A stretch of 64,000 nt of DNA, from the IMG/VR virus record IMGVR_UViG_3300042907_001080, positions 186,001 to 250,000 of that record; one strand, 5' to 3'. The translations under genes were made by a program, and so were the position numbers. Position 1 is the stretch's first letter. Every line of letters begins with the position of its first letter. The notes beneath the pieces were generated by a model. It had not been told where the DNA came from, made no database searches, and saw only the letters and a program-made list of their open reading frames with translations. Origin of the DNA: a virus. Shown here piece after piece: positions 8,798 to 64,000 of the stretch.

Positions 8798-8800
8798 CAA

Positions 8801-16129: not shown

Positions 16130-16145
16130 TTTTGTGTCCTATTCA

Positions 16146-16153
16146 TATTTATC
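16146..16153 (-). promoter_or_regulatory. T4-type late promoter (GATAAATA)
   Basis: Minus-strand GATAAATA differs from TATAAATA at one base. It lies 16 nt upstream of the 68-aa fibre-associated gene, between the stop of the 1625-aa fibre gene and this ATG. It would drive the 68-aa gene and the 1393-aa fibre gene. Confidence 0.65.
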
Positions 16154-16154
16154 G

Positions 16155-44003: not shown

Positions 44004-44112
44004 TGGTGTGGTCGGTAGGATTCGAACCTACAAAGCGATGTCTAAGACGTTGCCCTTGCCCAAATGCGTTTCACAACGGACCGGAGGTATACCAAGTTCC
44101 ACTCACGACCAC
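44004..44112 (-). tRNA. Atypical 109-nt tRNA or tRNA-like gene with encoded CCA
   Basis: The minus strand has a perfect 7-bp acceptor stem (GTGGTCG / CGACCAC), a discriminator A with an encoded CCA, and a perfect T arm (GTAGG-TTCGAAT-CCTAC). A D-arm-like segment (GAG...GG...CTC) resembles leucine tRNAs. The middle is unusual: about 50 nt lie between D arm and T arm, and no 5-bp/7-nt anticodon arm fits cleanly. The best candidate loop, TCTTAGA (possible anticodon TTA), has two A-C mismatches in its stem. It may be a class II tRNA with an oversized arm, a tRNA with an insertion, or a tRNA mimic. A sigma70 promoter places the start at its first base. Confidence 0.72.
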
Positions 44113-44118
44113 ACATAC

Positions 44119-44175: not shown

Positions 44176-45156
44176 ATGACACAAGACTTCACAAAGATAC
44201 CATTCCATAACATAACAAGATTTGGTCAACGCACCATGTTGCATCGCCCGTTATTTTCTACCAGTTGGATTTTGGGCCGTTTCTGTAATTATAACTGTTC
44301 TTACTGTTGGCCCTATGCTAGATCGGACAAGGTAGATCACCAGCCTTTAGAAGTATATACTAATACTGTAGATGAAATCAAACGACAGGCTCGACTAAAT
44401 GGCTTCAATGAATTCCATTGGAGTTTCAGTGGCGGTGAACCTACTGCTTACCGACAGCTACATGATTTGATTAAACACCTTGACGAAACAGAAAGCACAT
44501 ACCAAAGTATACACATGACAACCAATTTAAGTCCTGGAAGTAAATGGTGGAATACCTGGTGTGCCAACACAGCATTACTACAACGCAGAAGTATCACAGC
44601 ATCATTTCATGATGAGTTTGCTCGAGAGCAGGAATTCGGTGACAAGTGTCTACAGTTATTGCATGAGCGTGTGCATGTCACAGTCAATCAAGTAATGGTC
44701 CCGGAAAAGTTTTATGAGCTTTATGAACGCATGTCTCGGCTACATGCTCGTGGAATCAATGTTACGCTCAAACCGCAAAGTGATCCTACAGCGAGTCGTG
44801 TAGTCGATGGCTACACAACAGAAATGATTGATCTATTACAGACTGGATTTCCTCAAACATCACAAGGCGAAGACGTTTATCAAATAGCATTGTATGATAC
44901 AGACAACAAAGAATATTTGTTCGATCAAGCAGAAAGATTTAATGCTTTTGGTTTTAACAAATTCCAAGGTTGGAGTTGCAATAGTGGGTATCAAAGTGTT
45001 ATAATAAGAGGTAATGAAGTGAAACGATCATATAGCTGTCACGACCGACTATTAGGAACACTAGAGAGCTTTGAGCTTTTTAAAAAACCAACAGTTTGTA
45101 TAACACCTAGTTGTGTCAGCAGTGCTGATTCAAAGATACCAAAATGTATAAACTAG
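44176..45156 (+). CDS. Radical SAM protein 1 (SPASM-like C-terminus)
   Basis: A 326-residue radical SAM enzyme. The [4Fe-4S]/SAM motif CxxxCxxC is C37-N-Y-N-C41-S-Y-C44, followed by the G-G-E motif in WSFSGGEPT. The barrel strands H-M-T-T-N and T-A-S-F-H are visible. The last 80 residues have several cysteines (W-S-C-N-S-G, Y-S-C-H-D-R, V-C-I-T-P-S-C, K-C), suggesting a SPASM/twitch-type auxiliary cluster domain. Such enzymes generate a 5'-deoxyadenosyl radical, often to modify peptides. No substrate can be named. It opens the plus-strand operon; the next gene overlaps it by 13 nt. Confidence 0.9.
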   Translation: MTQDFTKIPFHNITRFGQRTMLHRPLFSTSWILGRFCNYNCSYCWPYARSDKVDHQPLEVYTNTVDEIKRQARLNGFNEFHWSFSGGEPTAYRQLHDLIKHLDETESTYQSIHMTTNLSPGSKWWNTWCANTALLQRRSITASFHDEFAREQEFGDKCLQLLHERVHVTVNQVMVPEKFYELYERMSRLHARGINVTLKPQSDPTASRVVDGYTTEMIDLLQTGFPQTSQGEDVYQIALYDTDNKEYLFDQAERFNAFGFNKFQGWSCNSGYQSVIIRGNEVKRSYSCHDRLLGTLESFELFKKPTVCITPSCVSSADSKIPKCIN

Positions 45157-46121
45157 AAAACATAAAAGACATACATCTAGAATTAACAAGTAAGTGTCAA
45201 GCACGATGCCCAATGTGTCCTCGCCGAGTTAACGGAGGGATACTAAATCCTATTATGTCGTTAAATGAGATAACACTAGAACAATTTAAAGAATGGTTCT
45301 CAGATGAATTTATAAATCAACTGGATAGTCTGTTTATGTGCGGCAATTTAGGTGATCCTATTATTGCTGAAGATTGTTTAGAGATATTTCAATACTTAAA
45401 AGAAACTAATCCTAACATACGATTGAGCATGCATACAAATGGTAGTGCTAGAAATATACACTGGTGGAAAAAATTAGCAAAGTATAAAGTTAAAGTTACA
45501 TTTGGAATAGACGGTTTAGAAGATACACACAAGTTATATCGAATAAGCACTAATTGGAACACCATTATAAAAAATGCCGAGTCATTTATAAAAGCTGGCG
45601 GCGAAGCAGAATGGCACATGTTAGTGTTTAAGCATAACGAACATCAAATTGAAGAATGCCGTGCGCTAAGTCACAAACTTGAATTTAAAAAATTCACAAC
45701 CAAGCATACTAGTCGTTTTAAAGATAACAAATTTCATGTATTGGACGAAACCGGCAAGACTGTTAATATTCTTTATCCTACTAAACTTAGCACTTCACAT
45801 ACAGTAAATGTGTTGTCAGTATTACCAGCAGAGATACAATGCAAGGCAAAGAAATATAGTCAACTATACATAAGTGCAGACGGAGGAGTTAGTCCGTGTT
45901 GCTGGTTGGATTTTTCCTGGCAGTTGCCTAACCAGGACAATAGAATAAATTATATGGATAAAATTGGAGTTTATCCTAACCTAAATAAACAGTCGTTAAT
46001 AGATATATTTAATTCTGGTTTCTTTAGTAAGATTGAAAGTACCTGGTCAGCCGTTCCTTTAATGGAATGCGGCAAACAATGTGGACATTTTGATAAGCTA
46101 GGAGAGCAATTTGTTAGTTGA
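45144..46121 (+). CDS. Radical SAM protein 2 (SPASM-like)
   Basis: A 325-residue radical SAM enzyme with C18-Q-A-R-C22-P-M-C25 and an L-F-M-C-G-N-L-G-D-P segment in place of the usual GGE motif. S-M-H-T-N-G and V-T-F-G-I-D-G-L are barrel strands. Near 250 there is a G-V-S-P-C-C-W motif, and C-G-K-Q-C-G-H near 312-318, the pattern of a C-terminal SPASM domain. This layout resembles peptide- or sugar-modifying radical SAM proteins of marine phages. Substrate unknown. It overlaps both neighbours (13 and 11 nt). Confidence 0.9.
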   Translation: MYKLENIKDIHLELTSKCQARCPMCPRRVNGGILNPIMSLNEITLEQFKEWFSDEFINQLDSLFMCGNLGDPIIAEDCLEIFQYLKETNPNIRLSMHTNGSARNIHWWKKLAKYKVKVTFGIDGLEDTHKLYRISTNWNTIIKNAESFIKAGGEAEWHMLVFKHNEHQIEECRALSHKLEFKKFTTKHTSRFKDNKFHVLDETGKTVNILYPTKLSTSHTVNVLSVLPAEIQCKAKKYSQLYISADGGVSPCCWLDFSWQLPNQDNRINYMDKIGVYPNLNKQSLIDIFNSGFFSKIESTWSAVPLMECGKQCGHFDKLGEQFVS

Positions 46122-46704
46122 TACAGAACACTTACATCACTGGATGCAAGCCATAAGACAAAGCCCAGATCCTATGAGGACCATGGATGCATTCTGGTCT
46201 GGACAACTTAAAAGCAAAGAATGGTTGATCTCAAATTTAAGAAAACACATTAATAAATTTGTAGGTATTGATATACATGGTGGCTGGGTTGGTGTACTAG
46301 CCAGTATGTTGTTCCAAAGTGATATCCCTATTATTAATATTCGTAGTGTTGATATTGACCCTACCTGCGAATCTATTGCAGTTAACATGAACAAGATTGA
46401 AGAAATGGTTGGCAAGTTTCGTGCTGTCACAGCAGACATGTGTGCTCTTCGCAGTGATGCAGATGTCATTATCAACACCAGTTGTGAACACATAACACAA
46501 GACCAATATGACATATGGTTAAGCGGAATGCCACATAGCAGCCTACTAGCATTGCAAAGCAATAATTATAATATAGATGAACATGTTAGGATTGCTAACA
46601 GTTTAGAAGAGTTTAAAAAACAATGCCATCTGGACAATATTTTGTATGCCGGGGAACTTGATTTGCCGTTGTACAAACGATTTATGATTATAGGAAAACA
46701 ATGA
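46111..46704 (+). CDS. SAM-dependent methyltransferase-like protein (197 aa)
   Basis: A 197-residue class I methyltransferase-like protein. F-V-G-I-D-I-H-G-G-W-V-G-V-L-A (motif I region), R-S-V-D-I-D-P (motif II) and V-I-I-N-T-S-C-E-H-I (motif IV region) are in the right order. This type is common in marine T4-like phages and its substrate is unknown. The start is a TTG at 46111, seven bases after a strong AGGAG site and overlapping the preceding stop; the first Met (residue 12) has no such signal. Ends in ATGA overlap with the next gene. Confidence 0.75.
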   Translation: MLVDTEHLHHWMQAIRQSPDPMRTMDAFWSGQLKSKEWLISNLRKHINKFVGIDIHGGWVGVLASMLFQSDIPIINIRSVDIDPTCESIAVNMNKIEEMVGKFRAVTADMCALRSDADVIINTSCEHITQDQYDIWLSGMPHSSLLALQSNNYNIDEHVRIANSLEEFKKQCHLDNILYAGELDLPLYKRFMIIGKQ

Positions 46705-47435
46705 TAGAATTAGGGTTAGTTAAATGGTATAATGACGCAAAGAGATACGGGTTTATTAAAGCAGACTCGGATGGAGAATCTATTTTGGCACAGAGTCATT
46801 CTATTGTGGAAGAACCAAAGACTTTGAGAGAATTTCAACGTGTAACTTTTGAAAGATATGTAACTGATAATGGCCTAGAAGCACGTACTATAAATATCGC
46901 CATGAACCCAGATTTATCGATTTACGAACACGAAGTTATATCATTGAAAAAACAACGACTTCATCTTTCTTCATTTGTAGGACATGTCTTATTAGTGGTT
47001 AATACTGCCAGCCGATGCGGACTTACACCTCAGTACGAAGGATTAGAAAAATTATTTCAAAAATATAAAGATAAAAAATTTACAATCCTGGCATTTCCGA
47101 CAAACAATTTCGCAGGACAGGAGCCTAATACAAATGCCGAAATTTTAGATTTTTGTGAGACAAATTATAATGTAAGTTTTTATGTTATGGAAAAATCAAA
47201 TATTGTAGAACAGGATAGTTCAAGCCCTGCACAATTCGCCGAAACTGCACCTAGAGAAATAAATTCTTTTTATAAAGACCTTGCCACCAGAACAAATGTT
47301 TTACCGCAGTGGAATTTCCACAAGTATCTAATTAATCGTACGGGTTCTATTATTAAAAGTTTTGATCATTTGACTCAACCAGACAATGATGTATTAATTA
47401 ACGCAATCGAAGAATTTTTGGATAGTAACGTATGA
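46701..47435 (+). CDS. Cold-shock domain fused to glutathione peroxidase
   Basis: A 244-residue two-domain protein. Residues 1-66 form a cold-shock OB fold with GLVKWYNDAKRYGFIKADSD and an I-L-A-Q-S-H-S-I second RNA-binding strand. Residues 72-244 form a complete glutathione-peroxidase domain: catalytic C106 (SRCGLTPQY), Q140 (AGQEP), W204 and N205 (WNFHKYL). The resolving-Cys position in F-P-C-N reads F-P-T-N. The peroxidase reduces peroxides using thiols. I know of no standard family with this order of domains. A perfect late promoter inside the gene ends 5 nt before Met68 (see separate entry). Confidence 0.88.
   Translation: MIELGLVKWYNDAKRYGFIKADSDGESILAQSHSIVEEPKTLREFQRVTFERYVTDNGLEARTINIAMNPDLSIYEHEVISLKKQRLHLSSFVGHVLLVVNTASRCGLTPQYEGLEKLFQKYKDKKFTILAFPTNNFAGQEPNTNAEILDFCETNYNVSFYVMEKSNIVEQDSSSPAQFAETAPREINSFYKDLATRTNVLPQWNFHKYLINRTGSIIKSFDHLTQPDNDVLINAIEEFLDSNV
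46889..46896 (+). promoter_or_regulatory. Internal perfect late promoter (TATAAATA) before the GPx domain
   Basis: Exact TATAAATA inside the fusion gene, with 5 nt (TCGCC) to the in-frame ATG at 46902 (Met68), right at the domain border. The geometry matches the sites before SOD and kdsA. Its use would give a leaderless mRNA for the peroxidase domain alone. Confidence 0.6.
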
Positions 47436-48358
47436 AAATATTAATGACTGGATCATCGGGATTTATCGGATCTCACTTAGCACCACTTTTAGAAAAAGAC
47501 CACACAGTTCATCATCTCAAAAGCGATCTAACAGATCACAAGAGTGTTCAGCTAGAAGTAGCTTCTGTACAACCAGATATCATTGTGCACCTAGCTGCAC
47601 GTACAGAAGTAGAACAAAGCTTCTATGAACAAATTACCTTTAGTGAAATAAACTATATAGGAACAGTTAATTTAATTGAAGCAGCCGCCTCTGTTAAAAA
47701 TTTAAAGAACTTTGTGTTTGCTAGTACTATGGAAGTTTATGGTTGGCAACCTATTAGTGATACTGTAAAAAATGGCGCCATACCTAAAGTATTTGAAACA
47801 TTTGATGAGAACACTCAGCCTAACCCCAATGCTCCTTATTCTGTAGCCAAATATGGATGTGAGAAATATTTAGAATACGCTTACAGATGTTATGGATTGC
47901 CATTTACTGCTATACGTCAAACAAACAGCTATGGTCGTAAAGATAACAAGTTTTTTGTTACAGAACAAATTATTAGTCAGATGCTAGAAAATTCCAAAGA
48001 AGTAAATCTTGGATATGCTGAACCATATAGAAATTTTATTTTTATTGACGACCTATTAGATGCTTGGATTACAGTTATTACAAATCCTGATAAAGTAAAC
48101 AGTGGACTAATACTTACTATTGGTCCTGATGCTCCTATAAAGATTAGGGATTATGCACAAAAAATTGCCAAAAAATTAAACTGGCAAGGAACGATTAATT
48201 GGGATACTAAATTGTTCAGGCCTGGGGAGATTTACTGGCTTAATAGCAATCACAATCTAATAACTAAATTAACTGGATGGTATCCTAAAGTCAGTTTAGA
48301 CGAGGGGCTAGATCAAACTATTAAAATCTGGAAAGAAAAATATGATAGTAGAACATAA
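47432..48358 (+). CDS. NAD-dependent sugar-nucleotide epimerase/dehydratase
   Basis: A 308-residue extended SDR. The Rossmann motif GSSGFIG is at 7-13, H-L-A-A near 53-56, S-T near 94-95 and the active-site Y-x-x-x-K in P-Y-S-V-A-K-Y near 135-141. The R-Q-T-N-S-Y-G block and C-terminal F-R-P-G-E segment are typical of NDP-sugar epimerases/dehydratases (GalE/GMD type). It likely converts an NDP-sugar; the exact reaction is not clear. It overlaps its neighbours by 4 and 17 nt. Confidence 0.9.
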   Translation: MKILMTGSSGFIGSHLAPLLEKDHTVHHLKSDLTDHKSVQLEVASVQPDIIVHLAARTEVEQSFYEQITFSEINYIGTVNLIEAAASVKNLKNFVFASTMEVYGWQPISDTVKNGAIPKVFETFDENTQPNPNAPYSVAKYGCEKYLEYAYRCYGLPFTAIRQTNSYGRKDNKFFVTEQIISQMLENSKEVNLGYAEPYRNFIFIDDLLDAWITVITNPDKVNSGLILTIGPDAPIKIRDYAQKIAKKLNWQGTINWDTKLFRPGEIYWLNSNHNLITKLTGWYPKVSLDEGLDQTIKIWKEKYDSRT

Positions 48359-48974
48359 GTTAAACGATGTACCGAGAATATCTGTTTTTGATAATGTACT
48401 ATCTGCTGAATTTTGTAGAGGTATGATAGAAAAACATTCCAATGCTGGAATGAATTCTAATTCTGGTTATCAAAGTCGTGTTGAGTCGTATGCCCAAGTT
48501 ACAGAAGAAGTTGAAAATAGAGGAATTAGTCTAGGTGTTGATCCCTATGATTATGATATAATAGCAACAGCTATTGTTAATGTTGCTAAAATTCCATATT
48601 CTCACATAGAGGCTATTGATATTTACAACTATCACGAAGGACAGTATCTAGCTTATCATCACGATTACTGTTATGACCCTAGACAAATCAACTATTATAA
48701 AAACGGTGGCGACAGAGTTGGAACCGGTATTTTTTATTTTAATGATGATTTTGTAGGCGGAGAAACTTATTTTCCTAAATTTGATGTATCTATTACTCCT
48801 AAGACTGGTTCCTTTTTGTATTTTGAACAATGCTATGACGAAGCAACTAATTGGGACACAATACACGAAAGCAAACTAATTACCAAAGGAACTAAGTGGA
48901 TCGCTAGTTGCTTTTTTAGTGATAGGCCTAGAGTAGGATGGTCTAGTAGAGATCATTTGTATGCTAACGGATAA
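48342..48974 (+). CDS. Prolyl 4-hydroxylase-like 2OG-Fe(II) oxygenase
   Basis: A 210-residue P4H-type protein. The facial triad is H106-x-D108 (A-Y-H-H-D-Y) and H175 (D-T-I-H-E-S), and a Lys near 182-185 (K-G-T-K-W) would bind 2-oxoglutarate. GIFYFNDDFVGGETYFP and PKTGSFLYF are typical P4H strands. These enzymes hydroxylate proline or other residues in peptides. Substrate unknown. It lies between an epimerase and a kinase-like gene, overlapping both. Confidence 0.88.
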   Translation: MIVEHKLNDVPRISVFDNVLSAEFCRGMIEKHSNAGMNSNSGYQSRVESYAQVTEEVENRGISLGVDPYDYDIIATAIVNVAKIPYSHIEAIDIYNYHEGQYLAYHHDYCYDPRQINYYKNGGDRVGTGIFYFNDDFVGGETYFPKFDVSITPKTGSFLYFEQCYDEATNWDTIHESKLITKGTKWIASCFFSDRPRVGWSSRDHLYANG

Positions 48975-49665
48975 TTGGATTCCTTTTTACAAATATAATG
49001 ATCAAGGTGTGCCTGGATGCATGTCTCAGCAAACCTATGAACCGTTAATAAATCCGGAAGGAACTGTATACTGTGCCAACTACGATCATAATAATCTGTA
49101 TCAACGTAAATGGCAACCAGACCGTGTGGGTTACACTCAAGACATTGTTGAATATTTTTTTAACAAAGAAGTTGGATATGCACACAAATTTAGCAACAAG
49201 CTATGGGCGCCGGAAATTATAGATATAGATTATGTTAGCAAACGTATTTTTTATAAATGGTATGGGCCCACTTGCAACGAATTAATATATACAGGCAGAA
49301 CTTTACCATCTGATTGGAAATTACAACTTCGAAATATCATGATGGATTGTTATAATGAAGGAGTTTACAAACTTACAATGTATCCACATTGTCATTACTA
49401 TGATAACAGCGGAATTATGCACACGCTAGATATGTATGGGTGCGTTGAAGTAGATGATCCGTTTATTGAAGCAAAGTATATGGATGGGATAATTCACGAA
49501 ACCGCTAAATTTAGACTAGACGAGACCGGACCTAAAAACAATAATAGATATGATTTAGAAAAAATGTTCTTCAATAGTTTATGCACCCACGTAAAATGGG
49601 GAGAATGCGATTTAAATTTTGTCTATCAAAATATAATTGGAGATAGCGATGAAATATATAGGTAA
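48961..49665 (+). CDS. Degenerate kinase-like protein, copy 1 (234 aa)
   Basis: A 234-residue protein whose middle follows the C-lobe of small kinases/phosphotransferases. P-E-I-I-D-I-D-Y-V-S-K-R-I-F-Y-K-W-Y-G resembles a hinge. NEGVYKLTMYPHCHYYDNSG and I-M-H-T-L-D-M-Y-G-C resemble the catalytic loop (HxD...N) and DFG regions, but without a clear catalytic Asp. It shares this layout with the 231-aa protein at 60250-60945. It may be a pseudokinase or bind a nucleotide or substrate. It overlaps the next gene by 17 nt. Confidence 0.5.
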   Translation: MLTDNWIPFYKYNDQGVPGCMSQQTYEPLINPEGTVYCANYDHNNLYQRKWQPDRVGYTQDIVEYFFNKEVGYAHKFSNKLWAPEIIDIDYVSKRIFYKWYGPTCNELIYTGRTLPSDWKLQLRNIMMDCYNEGVYKLTMYPHCHYYDNSGIMHTLDMYGCVEVDDPFIEAKYMDGIIHETAKFRLDETGPKNNNRYDLEKMFFNSLCTHVKWGECDLNFVYQNIIGDSDEIYR

Positions 49666-50281
49666 CTGCGCAGATAAAATAGATTGGAATGAAGTAATTA
49701 AATTATGCCAAGAGAGCGTAACAGGAGATAGAAACACTGTGGTCTCTGTGGTTGAAAGATCCGAAGTTAATTTACAGAATCGAGAACCTATGCAGGCCAA
49801 GGTTTTATTGTCGGTAGCAGAACAAATAGCCAACGAACAATTGCTTCAAGAGTATAGAAAAGTGATAGGAGATTGGCGTGATGCTGGATGTGACCTGGAT
49901 AAAATTTATTGGTATGATTACTATCCAGGGGATCATTATCCAGAAAGTATATCAGATACATTTGCTGCCATACTAGGAATTCGCCCATTAAGAGTTTTTG
50001 TAAGTGAAGTATATCCGGGTATTACAGTTCCCTATCACTGGGATGTAGAAGATAAGGGACCAGAATGGTTAAAAAAATACGGAATGCTTTATAGATATAC
50101 CTGCTGTATAGATGTGCCGAGGGTCGGAAGTGTATTAATCGTTGACGATCATTGTTTATATGATTTTAAGCAAGGAGACATTTTTGAATGGGATAGTTAT
50201 AGAAACTATCATTCAGCTGCCAACGGCGGCGAACACATACAGTATTATTTTCACATGTTAGGATATAAAATAAAATGTTAG
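49649..50281 (+). CDS. Aspartyl/asparaginyl-hydroxylase-like 2OG-Fe(II) oxygenase, copy 1
   Basis: A 210-residue protein. It starts MKYIGNCADKIDWNEVIK, a segment shared with the next gene. The double-stranded beta helix has H130-W-D132 (VPYHWDVED) and a distal His near 191 (N-Y-H-S-A-A-N-G-G), the facial triad arrangement of Asp/Asn beta-hydroxylase-like enzymes. I start at ATG 49649 because it follows GGAG at good spacing; the longer frame begins with TTG. Substrate unknown, possibly a peptide or amino-acid derivative. Confidence 0.8.
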   Translation: MKYIGNCADKIDWNEVIKLCQESVTGDRNTVVSVVERSEVNLQNREPMQAKVLLSVAEQIANEQLLQEYRKVIGDWRDAGCDLDKIYWYDYYPGDHYPESISDTFAAILGIRPLRVFVSEVYPGITVPYHWDVEDKGPEWLKKYGMLYRYTCCIDVPRVGSVLIVDDHCLYDFKQGDIFEWDSYRNYHSAANGGEHIQYYFHMLGYKIKC

Positions 50282-50820
50282 AAAGAGTTGGTAACTGTTC
50301 AAAAATTATAGATTGGAACGAAGTTATAAAAGAGATTGCTGAACAACGACCGGCCTATATCGGACCTAGCCACAAGGAAGATGATCCAATTCCGGGCCTT
50401 AAAGAAGTAACAGATTTGTGGAAGCGTTCGGGATTCAAAACTGTTGCTGATGGTGGAACAGTGGAATGGGACATGTTTTTGCCTCATACAAATTTTAATA
50501 TTTCTATCGCTGAAAAATTTTGTGAGTTTGTTGGATTGAAAACGTATACAAGCTGCTGGATTAGTAGAATAAATCCTGCACGTTGCTCACCTTGGCATTG
50601 GGATGTCCATGACGATGAAGTAAATTTATCTCAAAGAACAGACATAGTTCGATATCATTGTCATATAGGACAACCGACACACGGTCATGTTTTAATAGTA
50701 GATAATTTTTGTTTATATAAACAGCCTCAGGGAGAAATATATAAATGGCCATCTAGAACAACTTGGCATTGCGGATTAAACAGTGGGCTAACTCCGAAGT
50801 ATCTTTTTAATATATGGTGA
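50275..50820 (+). CDS. Aspartyl/asparaginyl-hydroxylase-like 2OG-Fe(II) oxygenase, copy 2
   Basis: A 181-residue relative of the preceding protein. Its N-terminus (V-G-N-C-S-K-I-I-D-W-N-E-V-I) is nearly the same. The triad residues are H108-W-D110 (SPWHWDVHDDE) and a distal His near 166 (T-T-W-H-C-G-L-N-S-G), with the strand HGHVLIVDNFCLY. The two proteins have diverged elsewhere, so this is an old tandem duplication. It overlaps the previous gene by 7 nt. Confidence 0.8.
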   Translation: MLERVGNCSKIIDWNEVIKEIAEQRPAYIGPSHKEDDPIPGLKEVTDLWKRSGFKTVADGGTVEWDMFLPHTNFNISIAEKFCEFVGLKTYTSCWISRINPARCSPWHWDVHDDEVNLSQRTDIVRYHCHIGQPTHGHVLIVDNFCLYKQPQGEIYKWPSRTTWHCGLNSGLTPKYLFNIW

Positions 50821-50824
50821 TGAT

Positions 50825-51025
50825 ATGATCAATGAAAAATACAGTAATGAAGATGTTCCTATTCAAGATACATTTTATATGCAAAAGTTTATGGAGATTC
50901 AACGTCAAAATGTTGTATTATCAAATAAACTACGAGACTTATATGAAATTCTTGAGATCCGTGATGTTGTAGAAATGCATTTTGGGGATAAGTTTTTTAA
51001 TATCTTAAATGATACACCTGCATGA
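50825..51025 (+). CDS. Small helical protein next to twitch radical SAM gene (66 aa)
   Basis: A 66-residue protein, mostly helix with a heptad-like pattern (VLSNKLRDLYEILEIRD). No family was recognised. Its TGA overlaps the ATG of the 466-aa radical SAM gene (ATGA), so the two are translated together. Candidate roles are a substrate peptide, a recognition partner or a subunit. It lacks cysteines, repeats or a leader-like Gly-Gly site. Confidence 0.65.
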   Translation: MINEKYSNEDVPIQDTFYMQKFMEIQRQNVVLSNKLRDLYEILEIRDVVEMHFGDKFFNILNDTPA

Positions 51026-56690: not shown

Positions 56691-57288
56691 TGATAATATT
56701 GTAAAGTTTTTTGGCCGCAATGCTATGTGCTATTGGGCCGGGATGGTTATTGTCGGACGCTAAATCTTCTGTATTCAAAATGTTATCACGTAACGCATTA
56801 TTGATAAATTTGGGAATACTACCAAAGTATTCGCCAATGGTGACATCAATTACTCGATCTATCAACATCTCCGGTTTCGGTGGAGCCCAAAAAGGATAAT
56901 AACGGAGTCCTAAACTATTAATATATAATTCTGCATGATTAATATAGATACCTGACCTAACATTGTTGTCGTAATTAGAATGAACCTCAGACCATTTCTT
57001 AAACAATTCGTCGTCCTGCCACGGTCCTATTTTTTTGTTCTTTTCTACTATATTAAAAATTACATCTCTATGAGAATAGGTCCAACCCACTACAACCAAG
57101 TCATCTTTCTTAAACCTAAACGACAAGATACGGGATAGTATCTCTAGATTACTACTACCCGGATCTCCGTTATTAATAGTTGTTCTGCCAGTTAATTTTC
57201 CTAACACTGCCGGCCATGATTGACTAGACGGATCATCTAATGCTAATCCAAGGGTAAATGAACAACCGAATGTTATAAGTCTTGACAT
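56680..57288 (-). CDS. SGNH/GDSL-family hydrolase-like protein (202 aa)
   Basis: A 202-residue protein with block I L-I-T-F-G-C-S-F-T (catalytic Ser), I-N-N-G-D-P-G-S-S-N near 38-47 (block II/III) and the C-terminal S-D-N-N-H-P-G-P with the Asp/His pair. This is the layout of SGNH hydrolases, often esterases or acetylesterases acting on glycans or acyl groups. I start at 57288 (MSRLITFG); a Met four codons earlier is possible. It overlaps the genes on both sides by 11-16 nt. Confidence 0.8.
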   Translation of the reverse strand: MSRLITFGCSFTLGLALDDPSSQSWPAVLGKLTGRTTINNGDPGSSNLEILSRILSFRFKKDDLVVVGWTYSHRDVIFNIVEKNKKIGPWQDDELFKKWSEVHSNYDNNVRSGIYINHAELYINSLGLRYYPFWAPPKPEMLIDRVIDVTIGEYFGSIPKFINNALRDNILNTEDLASDNNHPGPIAHSIAAKKLYNIINAK

Positions 57289-57986
57289 GATATTGCCCAT
57301 TGTCTTTCTTTACACCAAAAGCATTCGTTACAAACTGGAACGTATTGACCCGGTATATAGTTTTTATAATCAATGCCTACTATCTCGCCTTCACAACTGC
57401 GGGTAATTTCAAACAGATCCGTGAGGCCAAGCTCACTATACATTTTAACAATTTCTGACTTGTCTGTGAAGCGGAATGGATGATAAACCATAAAGCCCAT
57501 GTGTTCCATTTCTGCCAAATGCTTGTTGTCCTCTGTAGGGTCAATGTCACGTTCACTCATACCATTGAATTGTGCTAATCTTGGGTTACGGGTTACTCCG
57601 TTGTAAAACGCATCTATGTTATATTTCTTACAAATATACTCTGCGTAAGCTCTTGCTTGAATGTTGTCACCGCTCACTTGCTTACCATACTCGTCGGTTA
57701 AGTTTGGTCCTACATTGCCGTACTCTAAATCGGGCGCAATAAAGTTAATATGCCGTTTAAATGTTGTATGATAGAAATTTTGAAATAACCATTTACACAC
57801 AGTATCTGCATTGTCTTGTTGCCAAGGTTTGGTTTTCCAGCAACGTATATGATTAATGATATGTATAGTTATATTATGTTCTTTGGCTTTTTGGCAAACC
57901 ATATAGGCAAGTAATGCGCTATCGGCACCGCCACTAACGGCAATGGCAATGTTTTTCCATTTTGGATTGAAGGGTACCTTGAACAT
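57273..57986 (-). CDS. QueC/ExsB-like PP-loop ATPase
   Basis: A 237-residue N-type ATP pyrophosphatase. The PP-loop SGGADS lies at 18-23 (A-I-A-V-S-G-G-A-D-S-A). The C-terminal end has a C-x20-C-x2-C-x2-C pattern (R-S-C...V-C-N-E-C-F-W-C), like the zinc site of QueC but with a longer first spacing. QueC makes preQ0 from CDG. The enzyme might act with the QueD-like protein in 7-deazaguanine synthesis or activate some other carboxylate. I start at 57986 because a late-promoter core ends 5 nt upstream; a longer frame to 58109 would read through it. It heads the minus-strand operon of radical SAM genes. Confidence 0.75.
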   Translation of the reverse strand: MFKVPFNPKWKNIAIAVSGGADSALLAYMVCQKAKEHNITIHIINHIRCWKTKPWQQDNADTVCKWLFQNFYHTTFKRHINFIAPDLEYGNVGPNLTDEYGKQVSGDNIQARAYAEYICKKYNIDAFYNGVTRNPRLAQFNGMSERDIDPTEDNKHLAEMEHMGFMVYHPFRFTDKSEIVKMYSELGLTDLFEITRSCEGEIVGIDYKNYIPGQYVPVCNECFWCKERQWAISCQDL

Positions 57987-57991
57987 GGATA

Positions 57992-57999
57992 TATTTACA
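57992..57999 (-). promoter_or_regulatory. Late-promoter core 5 nt before the PP-loop gene
   Basis: Minus-strand GTGTAAATA with the TAAATA core at 57992-57997, 5 nt before the ATG at 57986. It faces away from the plus-strand element at 58015-58022 and would drive the minus-strand operon of six genes as a leaderless message. Confidence 0.55.
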
Positions 58000-58014
58000 C
58001 GAGTTATACTAGCA

Positions 58015-58022
58015 CATAAATA
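58015..58022 (+). promoter_or_regulatory. Late-promoter core 4 nt before an oxygenase-like gene
   Basis: Plus-strand CATAAATA (core 58017-58022) ends 4 nt before ATG 58027; a second ATG follows at 58042. Together with the minus-strand core 19 bp away it forms a divergent late-promoter pair. Confidence 0.6.
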
Positions 58023-58026
58023 TTTC

Positions 58027-58695
58027 ATGATTAACATAACCATGTGGCAATGCCCAAAAGGACTAATAGAACAAGCATTATCAGAGTGCCCAATTGAAGG
58101 TAGTCGCACTGCCTTGAATACTCCAACCGGTGACTTCTTCTATGACAGTTGGCAAATCAAAGATGAGTTTAAAGGTACAGCGTGGGAAGAACTACTATCT
58201 ACTTTACCTTACACAATTGGAGAAGCTCGTGTTATTACACTTGATCCCAATCAAAGTTACATGTCCCACGCTGACATTGATAATCGTTGGCATTTAAACT
58301 TGTCGGGCGAGCAGTCATATTTGATAGATTTAGATAATCAAAAAATGTATAAACAACGTGTAGACAATCATTGGTGTTATATGTTTGCTAATAAAATACA
58401 TACTGCTAGTAATTACGGTAGTGTACCACGTAAACAACTTGTAGTTCGCGAACCGTTAAAACGTAGCCACCACAAAAATTTAATCAACGTTGAAATTACT
58501 CCAGCATACGAACAGTTTGACTATCGTTATCAGTTTGACAATATTATTAGCCCGTGGCTGAATCGTAAGAATCAAGAAGGCGTTCTTGACAACTTTGTTT
58601 ACAAAGATACGGTTGTATCCTTTAGTATAGCAGAAGATGTCCAAGGACAACTTGACGCAATTATTTCTAATAAGTTTAAAGTTATCTATGTTTAA
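58027..58695 (+). CDS. 2OG-Fe(II) oxygenase-like protein (Asp/Asn hydroxylase-like, 222 aa)
   Basis: A 222-residue protein with a likely facial triad H81-A-D83 (Y-M-S-H-A-D-I-D) and a distal His near 126 (N-K-I-H-T-A-S-N-Y-G). An Arg follows in Q-L-V-V-R, the position of the 2-oxoglutarate ligand. The spacing fits the Asp/Asn-hydroxylase-like fold. I start at 58027, 4 nt after the late-promoter core; Met at 58042 is the alternative. A frame reaching back to 57943 would run through the divergent promoters. Substrate unknown. Confidence 0.65.
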   Translation: MINITMWQCPKGLIEQALSECPIEGSRTALNTPTGDFFYDSWQIKDEFKGTAWEELLSTLPYTIGEARVITLDPNQSYMSHADIDNRWHLNLSGEQSYLIDLDNQKMYKQRVDNHWCYMFANKIHTASNYGSVPRKQLVVREPLKRSHHKNLINVEITPAYEQFDYRYQFDNIISPWLNRKNQEGVLDNFVYKDTVVSFSIAEDVQGQLDAIISNKFKVIYV

Positions 58696-59134
58696 AGTTG
58701 GAATTACTGGAACTACTCGCGGCCTCGGCCAAGCACTACATGACCACTTTGTCAATAAGGGCTATCATGTAACGGCCTTTAATAGAGGATCAGACATGAG
58801 TGCCGCGGTTGGATGTGATTTGTTTATCAACAATGCCTACGGCATACAAATGGATATACTTAACCAACTTTATGCGAGTGTTGGCAAGATGATTGTCATG
58901 GGCAGTATAGTTACAGATTTTCCCGATGTAGAAATGCCAGACTACACCGCACAAAAAACAAAATTAGAAGAACGTGTGTTAGAGCTTAACCTTCCTAACA
59001 TATTGTTATTAAAGCTATCTAGCACTGCTTACAACGATTCGCAAGTTGTAATTGACGCTATTGAGTATTGGCTAGCAAACCCGTTGGTTAATATTATATC
59101 TTTTAGAGCAATAGGCGGTCCAAATCGTGGATAA
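58688..59134 (+). CDS. Short-chain dehydrogenase-like protein, copy 1 (148 aa)
   Basis: A short SDR-like protein of 148 residues. The cofactor loop is G-I-T-G-T-T-R-G-L-G near 5-14, F-I-N-N-A-Y-G gives the NNAG-like motif, M-G-S-I the catalytic Ser region and D-Y-T-A-Q-K the Y-x-x-x-K. All four landmarks are present, although it is about 100 residues shorter than a typical SDR. I start at 58688 (MFKVGITG), overlapping the preceding stop by 8 nt. Confidence 0.78.
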   Translation: MFKVGITGTTRGLGQALHDHFVNKGYHVTAFNRGSDMSAAVGCDLFINNAYGIQMDILNQLYASVGKMIVMGSIVTDFPDVEMPDYTAQKTKLEERVLELNLPNILLLKLSSTAYNDSQVVIDAIEYWLANPLVNIISFRAIGGPNRG

Positions 59135-59726
59135 AAAAATTATTGTAACCGGTCACACAAGCGGTGTTGGTAAAGCAATTTACGACAAGTTTAAAGAAAT
59201 AAGTTGTAGAGAAATTGTGGGAATGAGCCGTAGCAATGGATATGATATAGATAAAGACTTTGATAAGATTGTAGAAGAATCTACAGGCTGTGAACTGTTT
59301 ATTAATAATGCTTACAGAGACAGTCAGCAATTAAAATTAGTTGAAGCACTTAAAGACAAAGTAGACATGATGGTTGTTATGGGCAGTGTTAGTAGATTCT
59401 ATCCAGAACTTATTCCTACACAGTATGTACACGATAAACAAGCACTAGCGGAAGCCTGTAGACTTATTAGTTTAAATCCCAACGGTATTCCACTGCTACA
59501 TTTAGATTTAGGATTTATAGAAGGTACAACAGTAGAAGAAAACGACCCAACAGCCTTTGTTAGTGACTACACTACGTCCAAGGCCGACATTGTTGATACA
59601 ATTATCTTCTGGGCACAAAAGCCCTCTATTAGACAGATCGAGTTTAGATGGAAACTAACTCCGCAGGTCATGTCTGAATTAAAAAGAATTAATCCCGATT
59701 TAGATCCATCTAGGATAACGTTCTAG
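59127..59726 (+). CDS. Short-chain dehydrogenase-like protein, copy 2 (199 aa)
   Basis: A 199-residue paralogue of the previous gene with V-T-G-H-T-S-G-V-G, F-I-N-N-A-Y, M-G-S-V-S and Y-V-H-D-K in the same order. The C-terminal extension includes L-D-L-G-F-I-E-G-T-T. The start is GTG (59127), overlapping the previous stop by 8 nt; no suitable ATG is nearby. Its last 27 nt overlap the convergent GNAT-like gene. The pair could form a heterodimeric reductase. Confidence 0.78.
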   Translation: MDKKIIVTGHTSGVGKAIYDKFKEISCREIVGMSRSNGYDIDKDFDKIVEESTGCELFINNAYRDSQQLKLVEALKDKVDMMVVMGSVSRFYPELIPTQYVHDKQALAEACRLISLNPNGIPLLHLDLGFIEGTTVEENDPTAFVSDYTTSKADIVDTIIFWAQKPSIRQIEFRWKLTPQVMSELKRINPDLDPSRITF

Positions 59727-60257
59727 ATTCTCTAAAAATCTATCTCCGTATATTTTCCACACAGTTTGATCTGTGTACCTGTAATGAACTTCTTTAACAC
59801 GTTCCACTATGCCTATCTTTTCTAATGTGGGAAAATAATATCTGTGTACTAGCCTTTGACTCGCTACCTTGCTGTCATTAGATGTGGCATATATGTTTTC
59901 TTCTCCGACCCATGCTATACAGGCAGGTAATAAAAATTGGTCAGTTAGATTTTGATGTTCTGCAATTAGACGTTGGGGAGTTATTAATCCACCGTGTGGT
60001 CTTGCCGCACCAAACGTGCAGGTACGTGCTAACACCCTATAACTATCAGGCCCCATGACATCATCAAATGAGTGAGCTACTACACTACCGATGGCTTTAT
60101 TGTCCTGATACAGTATCCATGCTTTCCAGGATTTTTCATTGTGAAAACAATCTATCATGGATTTTTGACTGGAATTGTTTTCGAACCCTTTTTCTTTTGC
60201 TTCTTTATAAAACTCGGAAAGATCTAGATCAGAAGACCAATCTACAATATTATACAT
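59700..60257 (-). CDS. GNAT-like protein (185 aa)
   Basis: A 185-residue protein starting MYNIVDWSSDLDLSEFYKEA. The layout (K-A-W-I-L-Y-Q-D-N-K-A-I-G-S-V-V-A-H-S-F-D-D strand pair, then Y-R-V-L-A-R-T-C-T-F) is like a GNAT acyltransferase beta sheet and familiar from marine-myovirus proteins, but the acetyl-CoA loop is not clear. I start at 60257, overlapping the previous stop by 8 nt. Function uncertain. Confidence 0.55.
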   Translation of the reverse strand: MYNIVDWSSDLDLSEFYKEAKEKGFENNSSQKSMIDCFHNEKSWKAWILYQDNKAIGSVVAHSFDDVMGPDSYRVLARTCTFGAARPHGGLITPQRLIAEHQNLTDQFLLPACIAWVGEENIYATSNDSKVASQRLVHRYYFPTLEKIGIVERVKEVHYRYTDQTVWKIYGDRFLENLERYPRWI

Positions 60258-60945
60258 AAAGTTTTTTACACTCGTCCATAAAATCAGAAGGGAAGTTTGT
60301 TTTAAAACTTTCAAATGCTAACAGTTGTATGTCTTTAAAGGGAGTCGGCTTATCCACGTCTATTCCCATAGCAGACATTTTAGGAAATAGATCTGCTTGC
60401 CTATCTTCACTGATATGGCTCATTACGCTACGTAAACTAATAGCAGGATCGTGATCACGATAACAGAAAAAATAATTGATACTTTTAAGTTGACCGTTGA
60501 CAACAAAATAACTACTGGGATGTAGACTGTATTTGTAGATACCTAATGCTTTGTGTGCTTTAAATATTTCTAACATCTGTTCTCGCCAATTGGGCAGTAC
60601 ACTATCGTAGTCTTGTTTAATAGGATCAGATTGTTGCCAAAAGTCATCACCATCTATTTCAAGATAGAGTTTTCTTTTTTCTAAATCTATATTAATAATG
60701 TTGGGAACTAGGTGCGGAAATATATTACGCATTTGAGTAATAAAATTTACTTCGCGCAACCATTTTTCATTCATTAGACTAGGGTCTACTACTTGATTCT
60801 GACCTTTATGATAATCAGTATCGTTGTGGTACCATTGACAAAATGTTTTTTTATCTTTGCTAATTAAGCTGGTATAAATTAGGTTATTTCGGCAAAGGCC
60901 TTTTCCTGGAACATCGTTATAATAGTATTCATATTCTGCAGTCAT
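60250..60945 (-). CDS. Degenerate kinase-like protein, copy 2 (231 aa)
   Basis: A 231-residue protein sharing its layout with the protein at 48961-49665. It has P-N-I-I-N-I-D-L-E-K-R-K-L-Y-L-E-I-D-G, then L-G-I-Y-K-Y-S-L-H-P-S-S-Y-F-V-V-N-G and K-S-I-N-Y-F-F-C-Y. These mimic the hinge and catalytic-loop/DFG positions of small kinases without a full catalytic set. No substrate or partner can be inferred. A late-promoter-like TAAGTA core ends 5 nt before its ATG, back to back with that of the next gene. Confidence 0.5.
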   Translation of the reverse strand: MTAEYEYYYNDVPGKGLCRNNLIYTSLISKDKKTFCQWYHNDTDYHKGQNQVVDPSLMNEKWLREVNFITQMRNIFPHLVPNIINIDLEKRKLYLEIDGDDFWQQSDPIKQDYDSVLPNWREQMLEIFKAHKALGIYKYSLHPSSYFVVNGQLKSINYFFCYRDHDPAISLRSVMSHISEDRQADLFPKMSAMGIDVDKPTPFKDIQLLAFESFKTNFPSDFMDECKKLYV

Positions 60946-60950
60946 ACAAA

Positions 60951-60967
60951 TACTTATCAGCTAAGTA
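60951..60967. promoter_or_regulatory. Back-to-back promoter pair with TAAGTA cores
   Basis: Minus-strand GATAAGTA (core 60951-60956) and plus-strand GCTAAGTA (core 60962-60967) face away from each other, 5 bp apart, and each ends exactly 5 nt before a start codon. This repeats the arrangement at 31862-31882 with a one-base change (TAAATA to TAAGTA) in both arms. Confidence 0.5.
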
Positions 60968-60972
60968 TTAAC

Positions 60973-61788
60973 ATGATTAGAGGAATTGGCGGCAAGCCTT
61001 ACATTAATTTAGATCCATTTTTGGATGTAAAAGGGTTTACAGAGTTACATCCAGAAATCTGTAAAGGTTTTGCTTTAGCAAGGGATTATGCCAAAGAAGG
61101 CACATGGATGGCTCCAGGCTTTGATCAAAGTCGAGGCAGTTATCAGTGGAACTGGAAACCGATATACAAAGCACATGAAGAATATCTTGCCTTGTCGAAT
61201 GATCATCCCATTAAAATTCAAGGTCAAGAAATATATCCTACAGATTTTAAAGACTACAAACAACGCAATTTATTCACACGTTATCTTAAAAGTGTATTAG
61301 GTGCTAACGATCCTTATACCTATTATTTTCTATGGAACGAAGGCGACTGGAATGAACGCAATGCTGAAAGACAAAAGACTGAGGAAAGCAACTTCTTTCC
61401 CGGTGTTGTTCAGTGGGTAGAAAATCTACAAGAACAAGGTATAATAGATCGCATAGGGCGTGTTATATTTTTTCTTTGCGATCATAACGGCAAAGCATTT
61501 GAACATCGAGACCTAGATGCTAAAAACGGTGTGTTTGAAAATGATTACTATACTCCGCATAATAACGAATTCATACATATAAGATATCGCACCAAGCGAG
61601 GTTTCTATATATGGGATCCCGACACACAAGACAAACACTATATTAATAGCCATGCTGCTATGTGGAACGATCAAGACTGGCACGGTGGGGAATCTAGCCT
61701 AGAACAAGAATACGGACTTAGAATTGACTGTAAGTTTACACAAGAATTCCGTAAACAAATTGGAATAGATCATTTAGAGAATTATTAA
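60973..61788 (+). CDS. 2OG-Fe(II) oxygenase-like protein (271 aa)
   Basis: A 271-residue soluble protein. A likely facial triad is visible as H-R-D in A-F-E-H-R-D-L-D and a distal His in D-W-H-G-G-E, followed by an Arg in Y-G-L-R-I-D for 2-oxoglutarate. Between them lie the strands E-F-I-H-I-R-Y-R and Y-I-W-D-P-D. The N-terminal 150 residues are not recognised. Its stop overlaps the ATG of the next radical SAM gene (TAATG). Substrate unknown. Confidence 0.65.
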   Translation: MIRGIGGKPYINLDPFLDVKGFTELHPEICKGFALARDYAKEGTWMAPGFDQSRGSYQWNWKPIYKAHEEYLALSNDHPIKIQGQEIYPTDFKDYKQRNLFTRYLKSVLGANDPYTYYFLWNEGDWNERNAERQKTEESNFFPGVVQWVENLQEQGIIDRIGRVIFFLCDHNGKAFEHRDLDAKNGVFENDYYTPHNNEFIHIRYRTKRGFYIWDPDTQDKHYINSHAAMWNDQDWHGGESSLEQEYGLRIDCKFTQEFRKQIGIDHLENY

Positions 61789-62942
61789 TGTCTAATACAT
61801 ATTGCCCACTAGCCTGGATTGGCAGAAACATTTTACCTACTAGCATTCAACCTTGTTGTGAATGGTACGGTATTGGAGACCCGGTTGACAGTGCAGAAAA
61901 TATCGGACATAGTCCTGTATTTTTAAATGCTCGAGAAAAAATGAGTAAAGGAGAAAAAGTAGCCGGTTGTAAACAATGTTACTTAGCAGAAGAATCTGGT
62001 ATTAAATCTAGACGGCTACAGGCATTGGAACAATATGGGGTTGTAGATACTGTTGAAAGTAGAGTATTAGATGTTAGTTTTGACAATATATGTAACTTAA
62101 AATGTAGAGGATGTGCTTCGTCGAGCAGTCATCTTTGGTTTTCAGATGAAAAAGAAATATACAGTCACACTATTTTTGGTTCAAAATATGTTGAAAATAA
62201 TACTAATATAGATATTTCAGGATTGGAGTATGTCGGAGTTAGTGGAGGCGAACCGTTTTTAAGTAAAAAGTTTAACTCGTTTGCGGAAAAACTATTATCG
62301 ACACAAACGGCAAAAAATATATGTTTAACAATTAATACTAATGCAACTGTTAAACCTTCTCCTGCGGTATATGATCTAATTTTAACATGTAAAAATTTAA
62401 GTTTACAATTTAGCATAGACGGTATTGGGCACTTAAATTCTTATTTTAGAAGTGGCGCAACGTTTGAAGAATGTGAGAAAAATTTAAATTTCTTTAGAAA
62501 TCTAAAGACTCTAAGACAAGAAAAATCTACAAGTTTGGTCATACATACTACTGTTAGTTTATACAATGTAAATCTTCTTAAAGATATGGAAGACTACTTT
62601 CAAACAAATTATCCCGAATATGCGCTTACACATAGAAACTTATATTGGCCACCTCAACTATCAATTAGAAATCTTCCCCAACCGTATAAAGAAATTTTAA
62701 TTCCGATTGTTGAAAATTTTGGGGATAACTATAAAGATGTTTTATACGAATTAATATTAAATGAGCAGGATTATTTTAACCATTTTTTAAATTTTCATGT
62801 CAAGTTAGATTTATTAAGAAAAGAAAGTTTAAAAGATAGTAATCCATTGTTATCTGAATTTATAAAAAACTATCCTAGAGAATTAATAGATAGTAAAATC
62901 TTTTTTATTGAGCAAATGGATAAACTAAAATGCGGCACATAG
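61788..62942 (+). CDS. Radical SAM protein 8 (N-terminal twitch domain)
   Basis: A 384-residue N-terminal twitch radical SAM protein. C6 (T-Y-C-P-L-A-W), C23-C24 (Q-P-C-C-E-W) and C61/C64 (G-C-K-Q-C-Y-L-A-E-E-S-G) form the auxiliary module. Core motif C102-N-L-K-C106-R-G-C109, V-S-G-G-E-P near 148-153 and I-N-T-N-A. It overlaps the following oxygenase-like gene by 13 nt. The module is closely similar in layout to radical SAM proteins 3, 7 and 9. Confidence 0.9.
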   Translation: MSNTYCPLAWIGRNILPTSIQPCCEWYGIGDPVDSAENIGHSPVFLNAREKMSKGEKVAGCKQCYLAEESGIKSRRLQALEQYGVVDTVESRVLDVSFDNICNLKCRGCASSSSHLWFSDEKEIYSHTIFGSKYVENNTNIDISGLEYVGVSGGEPFLSKKFNSFAEKLLSTQTAKNICLTINTNATVKPSPAVYDLILTCKNLSLQFSIDGIGHLNSYFRSGATFEECEKNLNFFRNLKTLRQEKSTSLVIHTTVSLYNVNLLKDMEDYFQTNYPEYALTHRNLYWPPQLSIRNLPQPYKEILIPIVENFGDNYKDVLYELILNEQDYFNHFLNFHVKLDLLRKESLKDSNPLLSEFIKNYPRELIDSKIFFIEQMDKLKCGT

Positions 62943-63427
62943 GTAATTACAAACATTGGGTAAATCCGCTATGGGAACACTTGGTGTTAACTAGGACAGG
63001 ACAGGCAAGGCCCCGCGACTGGCCGGCATCAACTGCGGTTGAAGCAACTGAATACAAAACATATAAAGAAGCAGGCTATGATTTAAATGCAGTTAATTGG
63101 TGGGTCTATGAAGAACGCGATTTAAATATAGATATCTCTCCTCCTTGGACAACCGGTCAATTACACTGGTGGATCACTAAACTATTACCAGGGCAATACA
63201 TGCCCATGCACACCGATCCTCATACACATGATACTAATTGTTCTCGTTATTGGATCCCGTTGCAGGATTATCATCCCGGACACATATTTGTATACAAGGA
63301 TGAAATGATTACTAATTACAAAAAAGGTGATGTATATGCTTACACTAGTTCTACAGATTTACATGGCGCAGCAAATATAGGTCATATACCTCGACTTGTT
63401 TTACAAATTACAGAATATGATATCTAA
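62930..63427 (+). CDS. Aspartyl/asparaginyl-hydroxylase-like 2OG-Fe(II) oxygenase, copy 3 (165 aa)
   Basis: A 165-residue relative of the two oxygenase-like proteins at 49.6-50.8 kb. It has an N-terminal H-I-G-N-Y...W segment, H94-T-D96 (M-P-M-H-T-D-P) and a distal His near 145 (D-L-H-G-A-A-N-I-G-H). The Arg in P-R-L-V-L-Q is the likely 2-oxoglutarate ligand. It overlaps radical SAM genes on both sides (13 and 10 nt), so enzyme and oxygenase are made together. Confidence 0.78.
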   Translation: MRHIGNYKHWVNPLWEHLVLTRTGQARPRDWPASTAVEATEYKTYKEAGYDLNAVNWWVYEERDLNIDISPPWTTGQLHWWITKLLPGQYMPMHTDPHTHDTNCSRYWIPLQDYHPGHIFVYKDEMITNYKKGDVYAYTSSTDLHGAANIGHIPRLVLQITEYDI

Positions 63428-64000
63428 AACATACTGTGTGTATCCTTTTATAAGTTCTAGTCTGCAAGCAGATAACACAGTTCTGCCCTGCGGACAGTTT
63501 ATGAAATCTACCTTGTTTCAAAATATTATTCCAATTAATGACGTAAGACAAGGTTCTGTAATGCAAGAAATGCGTAGAAAAATGTTAAACGGCGAACGAG
63601 TAGAAGGGTGCCAATGCTACGCCGAAGAAGAAATAGGCATTTCGTCAATGCGGCAAAGCGGCCTTAACAAATATGAATTTACTACTGACACCACAATAAA
63701 AAAATTAGAATTAGTTATGGATAACATCTGTAACATAAAATGCAGAAGTTGTGGATCACCTAATAGTCATACCTGGCACGAGGATGAAATAAAAATTTAT
63801 GGGGAATCTTTTTCTAAGAAAAAATACATTAAAAATACTCTATATAAAGATCTCGAGTTAGATAGCTTAGTTGAAATAGAAGTTCTTGGTGGCGAACCAA
63901 TGTACAGTCCTGGAACTAAAGATTTTTTTAAACTATTAAAGAATAAAGGAATTTTAGAAAATCTTTCTATACAGCTAAGTACAAACGGAACTGTAGAACC
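63418..64000 (+). CDS. Radical SAM protein 9 (N-terminal twitch domain; cut by right edge)
   Basis: I translated this open frame from ATG 63418 to the window end (194 residues, no stop). C7 (T-Y-C-V-Y-P-F), C25 (L-P-C-G-Q) and C65/C67 (G-C-Q-C-Y-A-E-E-E) form the twitch module, with C-G and C-Q-C in place of the usual C-C and C-x-x-C. The core motif C105-N-I-K-C109-R-S-C112, V-L-G-G-E-P and L-S-T-N-G-T are clear. The gene continues past the window. Confidence 0.88.

Follow-up and report, generated by a model that had tools for sequence, protein, structure and literature searches.

A phage gene island rich in radical SAM enzymes and 2-oxoglutarate oxygenases has a conserved core and a chromosomal counterpart in Bdellovibrionota

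The gene island described here begins at ~44 kb of a 64,000-base window (bases 186001-250000) of the 281,658-base IMG/VR virus record IMGVR_UViG_3300042907_001080. Open reading frames (ORFs) were predicted by a simple script, and genes are named by their start positions in the window unless record positions are stated. The record belongs to a T4-like jumbo myophage. Specifically, it encodes a tail sheath protein (738 bits against phrog_10581), a portal protein (phrog_213) and a DnaB helicase, and the tail sheath is 39-44% identical to those of Agrobacterium phage Atu_ph07, Sinorhizobium phage Phosso and Pseudomonas phage PA5oct-type phages. From ~42-44 kb of the window the GC content drops from ~0.43 to 0.36, and gene orientation switches at the same place. 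Adjacent island genes overlap by a few bases, as a preliminary description of the window had reported.

Nine proteins of the window carry the CxxxCxxC motif of radical S-adenosylmethionine (rSAM) enzymes. All nine, previously listed by motif, belong to the Radical_SAM superfamily by motif and profile, with Pfam E-values of 1e-12 to 7e-5. Of these, 52370 and the truncated 63396/63418 narrowly miss the Pfam cut-off. The motif cysteines are kept in the orthologue alignments inspected. A1 (44176-45156, plus strand; PF04055, 2e-11) is followed by A2 (45144-46121, plus strand), which combines the radical SAM domain (PF04055, 1.5e-11) with a C-terminal SPASM domain (1e-6). A3 (52370-53464; SPASM 1.5e-12, PF04055 1.8e-6) has an N-terminal SPASM-like domain and lies on the minus strand together with A4 (53454-54560; PF04055, 1.2e-11) and A5 (54557-55450; PF04055, 1.2e-12). 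The other four score above the curated cut-off (170 bits) of the N-terminal-twitch family N_Twi_rSAM (NCBIfam NF033640), which the five A proteins do not: T1 (51022-52422, plus strand; 407 bits), T2 (55443-56720, minus strand; 315 bits), T3 (61788-62942, plus strand; 217 bits) and T4 (plus strand; 233 bits for the full protein). T4 starts at 63396 and runs past position 64000 (record 249396-250571), which is the edge of the window and not the end of the island. The island extends 12.5 kb further, to record position 262544. In addition to the rest of T4, this part contains two further rSAMs, three 2-oxoglutarate (2OG) enzymes of the Asp/Arg-hydroxylase type, an aminotransferase-like pyridoxal phosphate (PLP) protein, two GT-B-like proteins (assigned by eye), an N-twitch-like rSAM, an amidinotransferase and a B12-type rSAM. 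Across the full record there are 19 Radical_SAM places, in two clusters, at 145-152 kb and 230-262 kb, plus a QueE gene at 157.7 kb.

Six proteins with an HxD...H motif, all of them noticed before, are interleaved with the rSAM genes. The signature of Fe(II)/2OG oxygenases, HxD/E...H on a double-stranded beta-helix, was found in three ways. O1 (48342-48974, plus strand) matches PF13640 (2OG-FeII_Oxy_3, 5e-9) and phrog_61. O4 (57943-58695, plus strand; true start probably near 58027, where M29 is conserved) is related by profile to Cpz10 (7v4f, 7e-18; 4p7w, 1e-3), a 2OG hydroxylase of caprazamycin biosynthesis (PMC9814697). O2 (49637-50281), its paralogue O3 (50275-50820) and O6 (62930-63427), all on the plus strand, form one family with invariant metal ligands H, D and H. 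In an AlphaFold model of O2 (predicted local distance difference test (pLDDT) 89.6), the best-matching folds are AspH and Cpz10, with AlkB far lower, but overall TM-scores are low (~0.4). The sixth protein, O5 (60973-61788, plus strand), is assigned by its invariant H178, D180 and H237 and has no profile or other database match.

The remaining genes are more heterogeneous. The methyltransferase-like M (46111-46704, plus strand) has no Pfam match; its alignment has a mean identity of 54% with GGW and DxD invariant. The epimerase of the preliminary description is a firm NDP-sugar epimerase/dehydratase (47432-48358, plus strand; PF01370 1.6e-40, PF16363 5e-40), but its two short-chain dehydrogenases/reductases (SDRs) are less secure: SDR1 (58637-59134, plus strand) falls under the cut-off of PF00106 (3.4e-5), and SDR2 (59127-59726, plus strand) has no Pfam match and orthologues of up to 93% identity. 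The PP-loop ATPase (57273-58109, minus strand), which has a C-terminal Cys cluster, is weakly matched by profile (QueC 2.9e-5, ATP_bind_3 3e-5). The SGNH-like protein (56680-57300, minus strand; no Pfam match), the GNAT-like protein (59700-60314, minus strand) and M are assigned by motif. The two kinase-like proteins, K1 (48961-49665, plus strand; pLDDT 92.7) and its paralogue K2 (60250-60945, minus strand), are predicted to have the protein-kinase fold, with RIO2 and WbdD among the best Foldseek hits. However, the HRD Asp is not conserved in either, and K2 also has Asn at the DFG position, so that both of its catalytic Asp residues are absent. Catalysis is therefore doubtful, and the pair may instead serve in binding or regulation. 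The earlier list had missed a fusion of a cold-shock domain with glutathione peroxidase (46701-47435, plus strand; PF00313 2e-9, PF00255 2e-29). A search of Protein Data Bank sequences with T1, M, O5, the PP-loop protein and the PLP protein returned nothing useful.

The same genes recur together in other phages. A viral scan seeded with T1 found 87 relatives, of which the best 80 (56-100% identity) represent 45 distinct versions at 95%. Recurrence was counted in the 15 loci that extend at least 8 kb to either side of T1, and the counts hinge on BLAST thresholds and on fragmentary contigs. A2, M, A5, T2 and O4 recur in 14 of these loci and A1 in 13; together with T1 they make up the core. O2/O3 and K1 (12 loci each), the PP-loop protein (11), GNAT (10) and A4 (9) are frequent. 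Less common are SDR (6-7), the glycosyltransferase-like gt3 (6), SGNH (5) and A3 (3), while the epimerase, glutathione peroxidase, amidinotransferase and B12-type rSAM are each found in two. Gene order varies among the relatives and clustering persists; in 23 of their records, 5-16 rSAMs are found per fragment. Nonsynonymous and synonymous divergence (dN/dS) is 0.06/0.75 for T1, 0.09/1.38 for A1, 0.04/0.46 for A5 and 0.05/0.57 for SDR1, and the ratio is far below 1 in all genes tested, which are thus all under purifying selection. Pfam matches and purifying selection on every gene tested rule out chance or pseudogenes, and an assembly accident is ruled out because six further IMG/VR records (L017-L022) have the identical island gene order, with 99-100% identity.

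The preliminary description had proposed one multi-step modification pathway, which unlinked or mostly decayed genes would have argued against. The genes are linked, intact and constrained, with dN far below dS. Nevertheless, only ~6-8 core genes are constant, and the other modules, namely the epimerase, glutathione peroxidase, SDRs, kinase-like proteins, GNAT and several oxygenases, are optional and swappable. The island is therefore a single system in which the core is fixed and the rest varies, not one fixed pathway.

The core also has a counterpart in bacterial chromosomes. In a scan of 84,980 prokaryotic species, one genome per species, with the T1 alignment as query, T1 orthologues were found almost only in metagenome-assembled genomes (MAGs) of Bdellovibrionales, Oligoflexia and Bacteriovoracaceae, where A1 and A2 adjoin T1. 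Of two Bdellovibrionota classes, 15/144 genomes of one and 6/129 of the other carry A1 (~8%), versus 1/289, 0/274 and 0/295 in three other classes (1 of 858 overall). The bacterial cassette consists of A1, A2 and T1, often with M, gt3/gt4, a PLP protein and an SDR; a weak GNAT homologue adjoins one cassette. Because the cassettes are flanked by ordinary chromosomal genes, namely rho, prfA, murA and serS in G001 (a 936-kb contig), EF-Tu in G004, MoxR and an S49 peptidase in G002, and an FAA hydrolase in G005, these loci are cellular; contig G007:C21 is doubtful in this respect. Two contigs were left out of the cellular evidence. The first, L099 (Thermoplasmata; 3.5 kb, 65% identity), is probably misbinned phage. 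Contig G008:C6 (46.9 kb; L159, L160), binned as a Rickettsiales MAG and the single A1 carrier in the three other classes, has over 15 rSAM matches alongside tail-fibre-like genes and resembles a marine phage.

Bacterial A1 proteins are ~50% identical to the phage protein and longer, with open frames of 372-401 aa versus 326 aa in the phage. In both the T1 and the A1 tree, phage and bacterial copies are split by one branch (support 91 and 100, respectively). The exchange is therefore old, and recent capture from a host is unsupported. The distribution of the cassette suggests that the host of the phage is plausibly a member of Bdellovibrionota.

The bacterial cassettes lie among glycosyltransferase genes. 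With five query families, a glycosyltransferase was found in 17 of 18 bacterial 20-kb windows around the cassette versus none of 20 control windows from the same genomes; Pfam firmly identifies a homologue of one of these families as a GT2. In the chromosome of G1033, the cassette T1-A1-gt4-GNAT-PLP-A2-SDR is located ~4 kb from an O-antigen-type cluster that reads RfbF, RfbG, CapE/F/G, GT4, sugar-transferase and WbpM-like, names given by eye except for the homology of CapE/F/G to phage proteins. The phage record itself encodes a CapE/FlaA1-type dehydratase (2.4e-68 to CapE), an RmlD-type reductase, a UDP-GlcNAc 2-epimerase, a GT2 and a GT8. Its CapE/F/G-like set lies outside the window, at record 15938-20271 (L016, L015), with a 2OG oxygenase between the genes. 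We take these genes to be the set for UDP-L-FucNAc, which would make a UDP-L-FucNAc pathway probable in the phage. The other rSAM cluster of the record has four glycosyltransferase-like genes and a run of tail-fibre-like genes upstream. Since the core is found among glycosyltransferases in bacterial chromosomes, a carbohydrate substrate is likelier than a small peptide or phage DNA.

We give an even chance to the reading that the island is a modular biosynthetic system with which the infecting phage builds and decorates a structure based on carbohydrate. This would most likely be a surface glycan, either host envelope polysaccharide or virion tail-fibre glycan. In the scheme that we infer, from its sugar substrate and kinds of reaction to their sequence and purpose, the sugar-nucleotide genes and glycosyltransferases of the phage would provide and join sugars. 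The core rSAMs A1, A2, T1, A5 and T2 would then alter unactivated C-H bonds of sugars, or of sugar-bearing lipids or proteins, by dehydrogenation, deoxygenation, epimerisation or C-C bond formation, and the 2OG-Fe(II) hydroxylases would attach hydroxyl groups. The optional modules (PLP protein, SDRs, GNAT, methyltransferase and amidinotransferase) would attach strain-specific amino, acyl, methyl and amidino groups. The fixed core would thus set the chemistry and the exchangeable modules the outer pattern, as might be expected of a product under recognition pressure, for superinfection exclusion, receptor masking or host-range change. Besides the conserved core, the chromosomal cassettes and their glycosyltransferase context, this reading draws on the StrB1-type amidinotransferase of the island. 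It also draws on two other phage lineages, Synechococcus phage S-SCSM2R and Campylobacter phage CP220, in which amidinotransferase, rSAM and sugar-transferase genes lie together, and on the lack of a conserved small ORF resembling a precursor in the islands. Several points weigh against this reading. SPASM/twitch rSAM enzymes work on peptides no less often than on sugars. Many optional modules are assigned by motif, the gt3/gt4 calls are weak by Pfam (E ~3e-3), and most glycosyltransferase query families were taken from the cassette neighbourhoods themselves. A full O-antigen cluster beside the cassette was found in one bacterial genome (G1033) and is not general. Likewise, sugar-nucleotide genes are near the core in one bacterium, and in the phage record they are mostly at other places.

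Some of the same enzymes would also suit modification of virion proteins, in which tail-fibre proteins would be hydroxylated, cross-linked or epimerised by the rSAM and 2OG enzymes and would receive sugars from the glycosyltransferases, varying host recognition. AspH-type 2OG enzymes are able to hydroxylate proteins, and the second rSAM cluster comes immediately after tail-fibre-like genes (record 128974-138789). The virion-like genes 135088 and 136890 precede gt1-gt2-gt3 and rSAMs in G008 and partly in L077, L080 and L090, and rSAM genes lie within structural or host-recognition clusters of other phages (PMC12390700; PMC7029224; CP21). However, the core is found in bacterial chromosomes without phage genes, and in relatives the main cluster is beside no single fixed structural gene, and we regard this explanation as unlikely, if a serious contender. 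Quite unlikely, in our view, is a small-molecule pathway directed against the host or competitors, whose product would be an aminoglycoside- or nucleoside-like compound such as a guanidinylated amino-cyclitol or a peptidyl nucleoside. The island amidinotransferase is closest to StrB1 (1e-94), O4 is homologous to Cpz10, and a B12-type rSAM, a PLP protein and a PP-loop ATPase are present. Yet the amidinotransferase and the B12-type rSAM are not core, because only two of the 15 relatives have them, and the annotated island genes include no transporter or NRPS/PKS-like gene, transporters not having been specifically searched.

If the phage hypermodified its DNA bases to evade host restriction, this would account for the 2OG oxygenases, the rSAMs and the weakly QueC-like PP-loop enzyme, types all known from base-modification systems, and for QueE (phrog_2076, 184 bits). 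We consider it very improbable: in bacteria the core is chromosomal and its linked genes are those of glycosyltransferases, not DNA genes, and the modelled oxygenase resembles AspH and Cpz10 far more than AlkB. Maturation of a small peptide of the RiPP (ribosomally synthesised and post-translationally modified peptide) type by the SPASM/twitch rSAMs is the least probable of these alternatives. SPASM/twitch domains are typical of RiPP maturases, and a 66-aa ORF (50825-51025, plus strand) lies immediately 5' of T1 in some phages, but it is kept in only four of 23 distinct loci, whose islands contain no further family of small ORFs that recurs alongside the core, and the minimal bacterial cassettes leave little space for a precursor.

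A tRNA-like element (44010-44116, minus strand; ~109 nt) with an acceptor stem, a T-arm and an encoded CCA marks the left edge of the island. It is also found upstream of A1 in L019-L022, L031, L044, L046, L050 and L074, and is not called by ARAGORN (without introns) or Rfam. Immediately to the right of the island are 27 tRNA genes, which between them serve nearly all amino acids (record ~265.9-272.3 kb; L006:3947-10250), and tRNA genes also border the island in L041, L093 and L094. Elsewhere in the record, the QueE-type rSAM (158 kb region, record 157650-158504; L007) suggests 7-deazaguanine chemistry apart from the island. A NodU/TobZ-type carbamoyltransferase (phrog_1601, 328 bits) is encoded at record 8677-10146 (L016), and in the structural region several of the adjacent genes at record 62657-66019 (L013) are 2OG-oxygenase-like by eye.

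Phages with many rSAM genes have been described before. Campylobacter phages CP220 and CPt10 (Firehammervirus) have 11 and 12 (PMC2853527), the T4-like TARA_ERS488813_N000010 has 12 (PMC5332604), Aeromonas phage 332-Vera has eight (PMC12390700), and pelagimyophages carry rSAM cassettes in a host-recognition cluster (PMC7029224). Like the island, the latter three and Vibrio phage K566 have many rSAMs per phage, often close to genes for structure or host recognition. Five N-twitch rSAMs are encoded by K566, whose best match to T1 is 23% identical; the family name N_Twi_rSAM carries no function. CP220 resembles the island in having five clustered rSAMs with an amidinotransferase and two nucleotide-diphospho-sugar transferases, in a module that is swapped between close relatives. 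However, its rSAMs are only 20-30% alike where matched and the amidinotransferase homology is distant; the A1/A2/T1/M core and 2OG oxygenases were not detected in CP220, which shares no orthologous module with the island. Synechococcus phage S-SCSM2R combines sugar, rSAM and 2OG genes, as the island does, in the row GT-GT25-GT-PLP-rSAM-GT-2OG-amidinotransferase-GT2 (inosamine amidinotransferase). Its 2OG-amidinotransferase pair is homologous to record 259199-260739 (2OG protein versus island O9, E 2.8e-11), but the stretch has one rSAM, and the island core genes were not detected there. The Bdellovibrionota cassettes share A1, A2 and T1 with the island across a deep split from the phage versions. 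The sole published function for the CP220/CPt10 rSAM clusters is 'boosting host metabolism' (PMC2853527), and we found no function explained in the open-licence literature for the multi-rSAM phages CP220/CPt10, the TARA T4-like phage, 332-Vera or the pelagimyophages. Multi-rSAM phage islands are thus already known; relative to the same literature, the new elements are the definition of the core, how widely it occurs, its counterpart in Bdellovibrionota and its statistical association with glycosyltransferases.

Tentatively, the surface-glycan reading can be carried further: Bdellovibrionota and their jumbo phages may possibly share an undescribed class of glycan, whose sugars are rebuilt by rSAM and 2OG enzymes, and the phage copy, long separated and constantly re-outfitted, would remodel or imitate the host surface. 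Phages with at least ten rSAM genes have been called 'highly unusual' since 2010, without explanation. With its conserved core, its glycosyltransferase linkage and a cellular counterpart in bacteria of which some can be cultivated, the island opens this puzzle to experiment, as a question of surface-glycan chemistry and of recognition between phage and host. The island would also be a source of new C-H-functionalising enzymes.

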